Assembly: GCF_001476815.1 (NCBI RefSeq)
Contig: NZ_LDSL01000108.1
Location: 1-64,000 of the forward strand
Origin: Pseudacidovorax intermedius
Lineage (GTDB): Bacteria; Pseudomonadota; Gammaproteobacteria; Burkholderiales; Burkholderiaceae_C
DNA length: 64,000 nt
Reading direction: 5' to 3'
Each line of letters opens with the position of its first letter. Within the stretch, counting starts at the first letter, position 1. A program made the position numbers and the translations under genes. Under the pieces are notes generated by a model. That model made no database searches and was not told the origin of the DNA. It saw only the letters and a program-made list of their open reading frames with translations. Below are positions 29,865-35,428 of the stretch, one piece after another.

Positions 29865-31223
29865 ATGGCCATGCCCGGTCGTCTCGCTGCTTTTCTTCTC
29901 CTGTCCGGCATCGGCGCCGCCGTGGCCGTTGCGCTGTTCGGCTGGCGCCTGGCCTGGGCCGGCGCATGGGCCGGCGGCTGTGTCTGGCTGGTGGTCGACA
30001 TGCTGCGGGCGCAGCGGCTCATCCAGGCGATGCGCAACGACGCGGTGGGCCTGCCCGCCAGCCGCTTCGGCATGTGGGGCGAACTGGCCGACCGCATCCG
30101 CCGCGCCATGCGGCTGCGCGAGCAGCAGACCCAGCAGGCCGAGTTGCGCCTGCAGGAGTTCCTGGCCGCGATCCAGGCCTCGCCCAACGGCGTGGTGCTG
30201 GTGGACGAGGCGGGCCGCATCGAATGGTGCAACCAGACGGCCGGCAGCCACCTGGGCCTGGATGTGGAGCGCGACCTGCAGCAGCTCATCGCCAACCTCG
30301 TGCGGGACCCGGCCTTCATCGGCTACCTGGCCTCGTGGCACTACAGCCGGGAGGTCGTCATCGACGCGCCCGTGGCCGCGCGTTCCTCCTCGGGCCAGCC
30401 GATGCGGCTGTCGGTGCAGGCGCATCCCTATGCCGGCAACCGGCGCATGCTGCTCACCCGCGACATCACCGCGCTGGAGAAGGCGGAGGAGATGCGGCGC
30501 GACTTCGTGGCCAACGTGTCGCACGAGATCCGCACGCCGCTCACGGTGCTCACCGGCTTCGTCGAGACGCTGCAGACCCTGCCGCTGGAGGCCGACGAGC
30601 GCTCGCGCTACCTGGGCCTGATGGGCCAGCAGGCGCAGCGCATGGGCACGCTGGTGGCGGACCTGCTGACGCTGTCGCGCCTGGAAGGCAGCGCCGCGCC
30701 GCCGCTCAACCAGTGGACACGCATGCGGGCCCTGATGGCCCACTGCGAGGACGAGGCGCGTGGCCTGTCCGGCCGCATCGCCACCCAGCCGCACCGCCTG
30801 CAGTTCGCGCTGGAGGCCGATTCCGAAGTGGCGGGCATCGCCACCGAGCTGCAGAGCGCCATGTCCAACCTGGTGACGAACGCGGTGCGCTACACGCCGG
30901 GCGGCGGCGAGGTGACGGCGACCTGGCGCCTGCTGTCCGATGGCCGCGGCGAATTCACGGTGCGCGACACCGGCCCCGGCGTGGCGGCGGAACACATTCC
31001 CCGGCTCACCGAGCGCTTCTACCGCGTGGACCGCAGCCGCTCGCGCGAGACCGGTGGGACCGGCCTGGGCCTGGCCATCGTCAAGCACATCGTGCAGCGC
31101 CATGGCGGGCAGTTGCGCATCGAGAGCGAGCTGGGCAAGGGCTCGCGCTTCGCCATCACCTTCCCGGCGTCGCGCGTGCGCGAGGTGCGCACGCGGCTGG
31201 CGGCGCAGGCCCCGGCCGCGTGA
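29865..31223 (+). CDS. phoR: Phosphate sensor kinase PhoR
   Basis: 452 residues. Two short N-terminal hydrophobic segments (LAAFLLLSGIGAAVAVALFGW and AWAGGCVWLVVDML) anchor it without a large periplasmic domain, as in PhoR. A PAS domain follows (about 95-190, ASPNGVVLVDEAGRIEWCN). The phospho-His is in FVANVSHEIRTPLTVL near residue 219, and the ATPase domain has NLVTNAVRYTP, DTGPGV and GTGLGLAIVKHI. It phosphorylates PhoB when phosphate is low, under PhoU/Pst control. It is 137 bases downstream of phoB. Confidence 0.94.
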   Translation: MAMPGRLAAFLLLSGIGAAVAVALFGWRLAWAGAWAGGCVWLVVDMLRAQRLIQAMRNDAVGLPASRFGMWGELADRIRRAMRLREQQTQQAELRLQEFLAAIQASPNGVVLVDEAGRIEWCNQTAGSHLGLDVERDLQQLIANLVRDPAFIGYLASWHYSREVVIDAPVAARSSSGQPMRLSVQAHPYAGNRRMLLTRDITALEKAEEMRRDFVANVSHEIRTPLTVLTGFVETLQTLPLEADERSRYLGLMGQQAQRMGTLVADLLTLSRLEGSAAPPLNQWTRMRALMAHCEDEARGLSGRIATQPHRLQFALEADSEVAGIATELQSAMSNLVTNAVRYTPGGGEVTATWRLLSDGRGEFTVRDTGPGVAAEHIPRLTERFYRVDRSRSRETGGTGLGLAIVKHIVQRHGGQLRIESELGKGSRFAITFPASRVREVRTRLAAQAPAA

Positions 31224-31254: not shown

Positions 31255-33015
31255 TCAGTCGATGGGCCAGCGCTCGCGCACCTGCGCCAGCCGCGGGGCG
31301 ATGGCCCGGAAGATCTGCGCCAGCGCCGGGTCGAAATGCCGGCCGGCTTCGTCGCCGATGAAGCCCAGCGCACGCTCCACCGGCCAGGCCTCCTTGTAGG
31401 CCCGGCGCGAGGTGAGGGCGTCGAAGACGTCGGCAATCGCCACGATGCGCGCCGCCAGGGGAATCTGCTCACCGCGCAGGCCCTGCGGATAGCCGCTGCC
31501 GTCCCATTTCTCGTGGTGCGAGAGCGCGATGGCGCGCGCCATGGCCAGGATGTCGGACTCGTCGCCGCCGATGATCTCGGCGCCGATCAGCGGATGCCGG
31601 CGCATCACGTCCCATTCGGCGGCGTCCAGCGGACCGCGCTTGCGCAGCAGCGCGTCGGGAATGCCGATCTTGCCCACGTCGTGCATGGGCGCGGCATGCA
31701 GCAGGTCGTCGGCCCATTCGGGGCGGCAGCCGGCCGCCAGCGCCAGCGCATGCGCGTACTGGCTCATGCGGATGACGTGCATGCCCGTCTCGTTGTCGCG
31801 GTACTCCGCCGCCCGCGCCAGGCGCTGCACGATCTGCAGCCGGGTGCTGCGCAGCTCCTCCGCGCGCACCAGCGACAGGTGGGTGCGCACGCGGGCGCGC
31901 ACGACGGGCGGATACAGCGGCTTGGTGATGTAGTCCACCGCGCCCGCTTCCAGGCCCTGCGCTTCGCCCTGGCTGTCGGCGCGCGCGGTGCAGAAGATGA
32001 TGGGAATGCGCGCGGTGGCCGGGTCGTCCTGCAAGGCCCGGCACACGGCGTAGCCGTCGAGCTCCGGCATCATGATGTCGAGCAGGATCAGGTCGGGCCG
32101 GTGCTCGCGCGCCAGTTGCAGGGCGCGCCGGCCGTCGGTGGCAAACACCAGCCGGTGGTCGGCCTGCAGCGCCAGGCGCAGCACCTGGAGGTTGGCGGGC
32201 TCGTCGTCCACCAGCAGCAGGCAGGGCCGTCGGGCAGCCTCGGCCGGCAGGCGCTGGCCCCCGGGCACCGCGCCGGCGGGCAGCGCGGGCGGCATGGAAG
32301 CCGGGCGCGTCGCATCGTCGGGCGCTGGTGCATCGCCGTGCGCCGGGGCGAGCGGCTGGCCGACGAGCTGCTCGGCCGGCAACGGGCGCAGAAACTCTTC
32401 GCGCTCCTGGCCGCGGGCCTCCAGCCAGGCGCGCACCAGGCCGCGCGGCAGCAGCACCGGCATCCGGTGCTCGCCACCCGGCGGGCCGTAGCGGGCCATC
32501 AGCGGGTGGCCGTCGGCGTTCACGGTGATCAGCGCAAAGCTCAGGCGGCGCACGCCGTCGTCGTCCAGCCAGCTGCTCCACAGCCCTGCCATGCACAGCG
32601 CGTGGCCATCGCGCCGGCTGACCTGGCTGGGCTGCGGCGCGGCGGGGTCGACCCGGTGGTCCATCAACAGCAGCGCCGCAGCCGGCACCACGCAGAGCTG
32701 GTCCTTGCTCCAGGCCGAGGCGAAAGGCGACTTGCGCACCTCGTCGTCGCGCACGAAGGCGGTACGCAGGCGCATCGCGCTCTCCAGTCCGTGGCGCCGG
32801 CTTTCCGCGGTGATCAGGCCCCAGCGCCCCCTGCCCACCGCCGGCGCGCCGCCGACCTTGTGGATGAAGGTGCCCATACCGCCAGGCAGCACGTCGGCGC
32901 CAAGCGGCACGTCCTCGCCGGCCGCACCGGGACCGCGCAGCGCCTTGCTCTGGCGCAGGTCGCGCGAGAGCACGTCCCAATGGCGGTCCAGTGCCGGAAG
33001 GAATCTGGAAAACAT
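31255..33015 (-). CDS. SRAP-like domain fused to receiver and HD-GYP phosphodiesterase
   Basis: 586 residues. Residues 270-390 are a receiver (LLLVDDEP, phospho-acceptor Asp313, ITKP) and 400-570 an HD-GYP domain with MHDVGKIGIPD (His445, Asp446) and HHEKWDGSGYP (500-510), so cyclic di-GMP hydrolysis controlled by phosphorylation is likely. Residues 1-225 resemble SRAP (YedK/HMCES): RWGLIT (64-69), CVVPAA (108-113), CMAGLW (141-146), FALITVNADGHPLM and EHRMPVLLP with His183. The catalytic Cys2 is Phe (MFSRF instead of MCGRY) and the usual glutamate of the FYEW segment is missing. The SRAP part may therefore sense or bind DNA but not cross-link. A flexible linker spans 226-262. It is convergent with phoR. 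Confidence 0.85.
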   Translation of the reverse strand: MFSRFLPALDRHWDVLSRDLRQSKALRGPGAAGEDVPLGADVLPGGMGTFIHKVGGAPAVGRGRWGLITAESRRHGLESAMRLRTAFVRDDEVRKSPFASAWSKDQLCVVPAAALLLMDHRVDPAAPQPSQVSRRDGHALCMAGLWSSWLDDDGVRRLSFALITVNADGHPLMARYGPPGGEHRMPVLLPRGLVRAWLEARGQEREEFLRPLPAEQLVGQPLAPAHGDAPAPDDATRPASMPPALPAGAVPGGQRLPAEAARRPCLLLVDDEPANLQVLRLALQADHRLVFATDGRRALQLAREHRPDLILLDIMMPELDGYAVCRALQDDPATARIPIIFCTARADSQGEAQGLEAGAVDYITKPLYPPVVRARVRTHLSLVRAEELRSTRLQIVQRLARAAEYRDNETGMHVIRMSQYAHALALAAGCRPEWADDLLHAAPMHDVGKIGIPDALLRKRGPLDAAEWDVMRRHPLIGAEIIGGDESDILAMARAIALSHHEKWDGSGYPQGLRGEQIPLAARIVAIADVFDALTSRRAYKEAWPVERALGFIGDEAGRHFDPALAQIFRAIAPRLAQVRERWPID

Positions 33016-33302
33016 TTGCAACCAGCATAGCCGCGGGCCCTGCAGCCGTGCGGCAGGTCGGACAGGGGTCGTTTGAATGAAGGAGGGCGCCACGGCATGG
33101 CCCCGTGCCGCTGACGGGGTGACCGGTACTGGGCGAGGCCTGTGGCGCGGCACACCGGCCCAGGGGCCACTGGCACACCGATGGGCTTCAGGACGACACC
33201 GGCAAGCGCATGAGCCGAACATCCATCCAGGATCAATAGCCGAGTGATTTACTTGGCTTTCCAGGACGACCGGAAAAGCGCCGCTATACTCTAAGGCTTC
33301 CT

Positions 33303-33378
33303 TCCCCGATAGCTCAGTCGGTAGAGCGCCGGACTGTTAATCCGTAGGTCCCTGGTTCGAGCCCAGGTCGGGGAGCCA
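33303..33378 (+). tRNA. tRNA-Asn (anticodon GTT)
   Basis: 76 bases including CCA. The acceptor stem TCCCCGA pairs with TCGGGGA, the anticodon stem-loop is CCGGACTGTTAATCCG and the T arm is CCTGGTTCGAGCCCAGG. Anticodon GTT reads asparagine. A -10-like TATACT (33285-33290) lies just upstream with no clear -35. Confidence 0.97.

Positions 33379-33841: not shown

Positions 33842-35428
<1,587 letters not shown>

Follow-up and report, generated by a model that had tools for sequence, protein, structure and literature searches.

A SRAP-fold domain without its catalytic residues, fused to a receiver and an HD-GYP domain in Pseudacidovorax

The window, that is, the whole 64,000-nucleotide stretch of Pseudacidovorax intermedius contig NZ_LDSL01000108.1 that was analysed, carries a gene, here called paralogue A, that joins a SRAP-fold domain to a receiver (REC) and an HD-GYP domain. 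It is close to certain that this fusion is real, and equally close to certain that its SRAP part has lost all four catalytic residues of the family, which argues that it is not an abasic (AP)-site cross-linker of the YedK/HMCES type. In the interpretation favoured here, to which a probability of roughly 0.4 is given, A would be a cyclic di-GMP (c-di-GMP) phosphodiesterase response regulator in which the SRAP fold serves as a non-covalent DNA-binding input domain. What is new is a member of the SRAP fold that fails as a cross-linker, while the REC-HD-GYP chassis carrying it is of an ordinary, known kind.

A fused reading frame of three domains

Paralogue A and its parts are located in the window as follows:

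31255..33015, minus strand: paralogue A, SRAP-REC-HD-GYP protein; open frame of 586 residues and a stop codon, with orthologues in five more genomes
32350..33015, minus strand: SRAP-fold domain, residues 1-222 (Pfam-A match, alignments and fold model)
32224..32349, minus strand: Pro/Ala-rich linker, residues 223-264, weakly conserved (pLDDT and dN/dS)
31876..32223, minus strand: receiver domain, residues 265-380 (Pfam-A and motif reading)
31258..31854, minus strand: HD-GYP domain, residues 388-586 (Pfam-A and motif reading)

A first-pass annotation of this DNA had described such a fusion, and the domain searches bear it out, since a single 586-residue frame holds three Pfam-A matches above their cut-offs, namely SRAP (60.9 bits against a cut-off of 27.1, residues 58-221, E 1.7e-16), Response_reg (90.7 bits, residues 267-376) and HD_5 (115.2 bits, residues 401-565). 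The same annotation had named an N-terminal sequencing error hiding a separate gene as the alternative. This alternative, together with a frameshift, was ruled out, because the fused frame recurs in five other genomes with 73-74% identity across the SRAP part, and a second fused paralogue, B, with 51-55% identity over that part, is found in the same six genomes; the frame is open in all 12 A and B proteins. In the orthologues L066 and L065, the frame opens 9 and 12 codons, respectively, ahead of the same methionine, indicating that the Met of MFSRF is the likely start of A. Upstream of it (window positions 33016-33060 and the five orthologues), a TATGCT-like element, read by eye and present as TATTCT in L066, ends 8 bases before the start codon in six of six cases and no ribosome-binding site is visible, so that the A transcript may be leaderless.

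A structure prediction of the N-terminal part, which the first-pass annotation had proposed, returned a SRAP fold. With 44 sequences in its alignment, the AlphaFold model of residues 1-230 reached a mean pLDDT of 89.9 and a pTM of 0.88, and all 21 Foldseek matches to the PDB at E<=0.001 were SRAP chains, the next match having an E of 0.23. The best-fitting structure was 1zn6 (E 1.3e-19, TMq 0.80), while TMq was 0.70-0.73 for HMCES chains and 0.62-0.67 for YedK chains. The full-length model was poor (pLDDT 69.0, pTM 0.44), with linker residues 226-260 below a pLDDT of 50, and domain contacts were not taken from it. By homology and modelled fold, residues 1-222 are thus assigned to the SRAP superfamily (PF02586; Escherichia coli YedK, human HMCES, Bordetella 1zn6), with which A shares the fold and two arginines proposed as DNA contacts; unlike these proteins, A lacks Cys2, Asn75, Glu105 and His160 and bears a C-terminal REC-HD-GYP part.

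Catalytic positions, selection and solo relatives

In the available sections of the respective papers, catalysis is assigned to Cys2, Glu105 and His160, along with Asn75, in YedK (PMC9436759) and to Cys2, Glu115 and His173 in 1zn6, for which R86 and R180 were proposed as DNA contacts (PMC3765255). Residues were mapped through an alignment to 1zn6 and a 53-row alignment, from which L047 (a fragment), L069 (no start), L058 (a near-copy) and duplicate loci were left out. As the first-pass annotation had claimed, Cys2 is replaced by Phe2 in the MFSRF start of A and the active-site glutamate is lost (Leu117), to which the loss of the catalytic Asn (Phe87), absent from that account, has to be added. 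Its statement that one His remains proved wrong for the catalytic column, which holds Gly177; which His was meant was left unsaid, and two candidates in A are His183 of EHRMP, whose column holds Lys in each of the 20 canonical proteins aligned, and His170, at a position occupied by His throughout the 53 rows. All four catalytic residues are gone in 12 of 12 fused proteins, where position 2 is Phe, Ile or Leu and the column of His173 of 1zn6 (His160 of YedK) is invariably Gly.

In 19 or more of the 20 canonical proteins, 34 columns are conserved; of these, the fused set keeps 17 fully and 9 partly and has lost 8, and the four catalytic columns are all among these 8 (chance 70/46376 = 0.0015, by hand arithmetic). 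Two possible DNA contacts are among the lost columns as well, namely an Arg at position 52 and a Lys at 183, which has become Arg in 10 of 12. On the other hand, Arg89 and Arg184 of A, corresponding to R86 and R180 of 1zn6, are both kept in all 12 fused proteins, a pattern that allows DNA binding by the fused SRAP and does not prove it. These arginines are possibly just structural, since 84 of 227 columns are invariant among the 12 proteins anyway. The net charge of the first 222 residues ranges from +2 to +7 in the 12 fused proteins and from -3 to +3 in five solo proteins examined. In the parts of PMC9436759 available, Cys2-blocked YedK E105Q and H160Q were described to lose AP-site cleavage while retaining DNA binding.

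The loss of every catalytic residue could also be expected of a functionless, decaying remnant, a view with which the faster evolution of the SRAP part relative to REC would agree. Pairwise dN/dS values were calculated by the Nei-Gojobori method for 12 orthologue pairs (6 of 15 A pairs and 6 of 15 B pairs), and ranged over 0.107-0.287 for the SRAP part, 0.018-0.151 for REC, 0.030-0.351 for HD-GYP and 0.246-0.754 for the linker. The SRAP part of the fused proteins is under purifying selection, and these values, the open frame in every fused protein and the confidently modelled fold make decay very unlikely. Between A and B (two pairs), dN/dS was 0.55-0.57 for SRAP, 0.51-0.52 for REC and 0.88-1.04 for HD-GYP, the last of which suggests that the two paralogues parted most freely in the catalytic domain.

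Residual abasic-site chemistry, in which a Schiff base or a lyase reaction would proceed through the N-terminal amine, appears more improbable still. It draws on YedK C2A and C2S, which still give Schiff bases with AP sites, and has against it that Glu105, reported as required for the Schiff base in the accessible text of the same paper (PMC9436759), is missing in 12 of 12 fused proteins. The residues found at position 2 of the fused proteins count against it as well. Methionine is normally not removed before Phe, Ile or Leu, and the reactive amine would therefore be displaced by one residue.

Cys2 is also absent from a set of solo SRAP proteins, here called group X, which come mostly from records named as Comamonadaceae genera (among the best 80 of 164 confirmed loci) and share 29-37% identity with the fused SRAP over the domain, or up to 46% on a shorter segment. 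They differ from it in standing alone, in having Ser or Thr at position 2 and in mostly keeping Glu105, while His160 is lost in nearly all of them. In 67 solo proteins with a clear start, position 2 was Ser in 55, Thr in 11 and Ile in 1; Glu105 was kept in 55, Asn75 in 44 and His160 in none, its column being Gln in 48, Gly in 17 and another residue in 2. These counts were taken from 80 genome loci with starts set by a motif pattern, leaving out L104 and L130 (no clear start) and second matches in L070, L100, L126 and L130; in a first, partly overlapping set of 21 solo proteins, the catalytic His was kept in 1. The 67 loci lie among L080-L149, an example being L099:3779-4516 (plus strand) of Delftia acidovorans.

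Group X resembles laboratory YedK mutants, as far as these are described in the sections of PMC9436759 at hand: Schiff bases arise with both C2A and C2S, AP-DNA is cleaved by C2A, and the double mutant C2A H160Q shows an unchanged rate of Schiff-base formation but 2.5-fold slower cleavage. By this analogy, group X proteins are predicted to be natural AP lyases, that is, possible Schiff-base/AP-lyase forms of SRAP, against which stands that the same sections report no strand cleavage by Cys2-blocked H160Q YedK. Whether A and B arose from this group was addressed by an origin tree, in which neither the placement of A and B with group X (AU p 0.402) nor that with six canonical rows (0.404) was rejected; the four catalytic columns and 10 of 20 canonical rows, long or distant, were excluded from this tree, in which the software flagged a meeting of long branches.

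The output module, the second paralogue and the spread of the fusion

All 12 fused proteins retain Asp270, Asp271, Asp313, Thr343 and Lys365 of the receiver; we take these residues to have their usual roles, with Asp313 as the likely phospho-acceptor. Judged by its receiver domain, the acidic pair and Asp313, A qualifies as a response regulator. The HD-GYP motifs DNETG..H, HDxGK and HHExWDGSGYP are intact in A. Read against the motifs given in the available portion of PMC4159591, the metal-ligand and catalytic set would comprise Asp407, Glu409, His413, His445, Asp446, Lys449, His474, His500, His501 and Asp529, with GYP at 508-510. A thus appears to have the metal ligands, the Asp/Lys pair and the GYP motif of a c-di-GMP phosphodiesterase, from which we infer this activity. 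The sole PADLOC matches were weak (E 0.005-0.009) and fell on the receiver, and a defence-system link was dismissed.

The plan of a receiver followed by HD-GYP is that of RpfG and TM0186, as described in the accessible part of PMC4159591, to which A adds an N-terminal SRAP fold of about 222 residues. Since the REC-HD-GYP part of A shares 65% identity across 322 columns with L165, a protein of the same genome that consists of these two domains alone, the SRAP fold looks as if it had been added to an ordinary response regulator. N-terminal domains that could control an HD-GYP phosphodiesterase are also present in the GAF-HD-GYP protein PmGH (PMC4159591) and in a globin-coupled HD-GYP protein of Vibrio fluvialis (PMC10882959), as far as the consulted sections describe them; A differs from both in having a receiver between the two domains and an input fold derived from a DNA-repair family. 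In the open-licence literature, neither a SRAP domain together with HD-GYP nor Pseudacidovorax together with c-di-GMP was found, and papers on SRAP, YedK or the SOS response-associated peptidase, among the matches listed, contain no such fusion in their titles or abstract openings.

Paralogue B of the same genome is located as follows:

contig 8:8399-9034 (L005:391-2133, minus strand): paralogue B, with the same SRAP-REC-HD-GYP layout
L042:6264-7247, minus strand: gene directly before B, encoding a protein of 328 aa

B, whose orthologues are L036 and L059-L062, scores 49.7 bits for SRAP (Pfam) in the window's own genome and retains the HD, HH and GYP motifs. By motif reading, Ala, Val and Val/Ile replace the equivalents of Asp183, Glu185 and Lys225 in six of six B proteins. 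In the part of PMC4159591 available, PmGH was inactive with alanine at Asp183 or Lys225 and had markedly less activity with alanine at Glu185; by analogy, B is predicted to be inactive or weak, likely a pseudo-phosphodiesterase. The genome holds five SRAP matches in all (three solo proteins with Cys2, A and, on another contig, B) and five HD-GYP (PF13487) matches, of which two are the fusions.

Regarding the spread of the fusion, 15 genomes of the genus group were compared: six carry A and B and nine carry neither, so that both are present in all six genomes with either. Fused loci make up 10 of the best 80 of 164 confirmed loci, among which every named record that has A together with B, five of the six carriers, belongs to Pseudacidovorax (P. 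intermedius DSM 21352, NFM-22 and RU35E, plus two metagenome assemblies). In two family samples (200 genomes; 399 genomes of 141 genera), fused matches came only from two carrier genomes of the Pseudacidovorax group, with 382.7-422.6 bits in the 399-genome sample, where the next best match had 137.9; in an order sample of 300 genomes, at E<=1e-45, the only fused match was that of the window's own genome. The survey of Burkholderiales proposed in the first-pass annotation hence found a fusion that recurs in the Pseudacidovorax group and not one spread across the order's samples, bearing in mind that these would miss a canonical SRAP fused independently to a receiver in other groups. Open-frame matches of at least 500 residues (L008/L041, L038, L039, L040, L161 and L184) were checked as candidates outside A and B and rejected: in each, SRAP is C-terminal in a longer stop-free frame, with neither a receiver nor an HD-GYP domain behind it (for L008, from positions only). 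The IMG/VR contig L150 (49.8 kb) ends with the same gene A, probably because the provirus boundary was drawn past the tRNA.

The joint presence of A and B in six of six genomes raises the possibility that the SRAP fold mediates protein-protein contacts or dimerisation and has no nucleic-acid ligand; A and B may meet through it, and the defective B may tune A. The absence from B of residues critical in PmGH (in the available part of PMC4159591) fits this idea, as does a catalytic pocket stripped of polar residues in A (Phe87, Leu117, Gly177). However, the co-occurrence probably reflects a single inherited event, as indicated by the identity of phoR to the window's copy, which is 88-100% in the six carriers and 74-82% in the nine other genomes, and both proposed DNA-contact arginines are invariant. 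A protein-protein role is possible, and nearly as likely as the DNA-binding version.

Genomic context and the possible role of the fused SRAP fold

The neighbours of A in the window are as follows:

29865..31223, plus strand: phoR-like histidine kinase gene, which lies next to A and converges with it in all six genomes with A
33303..33378, plus strand: tRNA-Asn(gtt), which precedes A on the other strand in all six genomes with A
33845-35428, minus strand: HerA_C-type ATPase gene (PF05872, 733 bits), beyond tRNA-Asn from A

The HerA_C-type ATPase has no match in the flanks compared of the other five A loci, and no conserved repair gene was found in the flanks of the A and B loci. In four stretches with rough gene calls, none of the genes in line with A or B was seen to encode a kinase, the nearest kinase gene being phoR. 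In six of the nine genomes without A, those whose flanks were read, a different convergent gene follows phoR, which by eye we take to encode a MATE-type transporter. Integrase-like and serine-type recombinase-like genes, recognised by eye, lie at the tRNA-Asn beside A in P. intermedius L037:1-4135. The gene directly upstream of B is in line with it in six of six genomes; in the own genome, its product has no Pfam, NCBIfam or PADLOC match, and an identity as MmcB was rejected, with PF06319 giving no match in that genome even at E<=10. An EVK-SRAD motif of this protein looks nuclease-like by eye, and a relative, 40% identical, lies beside a canonical SRAP gene in L023.

LexA-like sites were searched for as CTGT-N8-ACAG, a general pattern rather than one derived from this genome's own box, in the 350 bases before each start. 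One site with one mismatch precedes A in the window, which contains six such sites overall; none with 0-1 mismatch was found in these 350 bases before A in five orthologues or before B in six genomes, and such sites lie further off in some B loci. SOS control of A and B was rejected, no LexA-like box being conserved upstream of either. The suggestion of the first-pass annotation that a DNA-damage reader was reused as a sensor is upheld as regards domain reuse, given purifying selection and two retained paralogues, and finds no conserved LexA-like box or repair gene to tie it to damage.

In the DNA-binding reading, which we continue to prefer, A would be a response regulator hydrolysing c-di-GMP via its HD-GYP domain, and its N-terminal SRAP fold would have given up abasic-site chemistry and would bind nucleic acid non-covalently, single-stranded or gapped DNA being the first candidate. 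Nucleic-acid binding and phosphorylation of Asp313 would together change the phosphodiesterase output, and B, with its predicted inactive or weak HD-GYP domain, would be a likely regulator or partner of A. DNA as the ligand, its coupling to the output and the A-B partnership are what we infer from the fold, the kept arginines, the positive charge and the YedK mutants that bind without reaction (PMC9436759, in the part available), against which weigh the missing conserved repair context and SOS box and the high number of invariant columns. A further version, in which the repair-derived fold became a non-covalent DNA-status sensor feeding c-di-GMP signalling through a pair of one active and one pseudo-phosphodiesterase, so that exposed single-stranded or gapped DNA alters biofilm or motility decisions independently of LexA, is rather doubtful. 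The same kept residues would serve a DNA tether, which would hold the phosphodiesterase at the nucleoid or at replication forks without sensing, and for which the long, poorly conserved linker would be suited; nothing in the sequence separates a tether from a sensor, and this proposal is considered unlikely.

Cys2 was termed absolutely conserved in the paper that named SRAP, as far as its available text goes (PMC3765255), a rule that fails both in the fused proteins and in a wide set of solo relatives. A fold that is kept under selection without its chemistry suggests that SRAP has a life beyond abasic-site cross-linking and, if the dead domain of the fused proteins still reads DNA, it would provide a direct link from the state of DNA to c-di-GMP.
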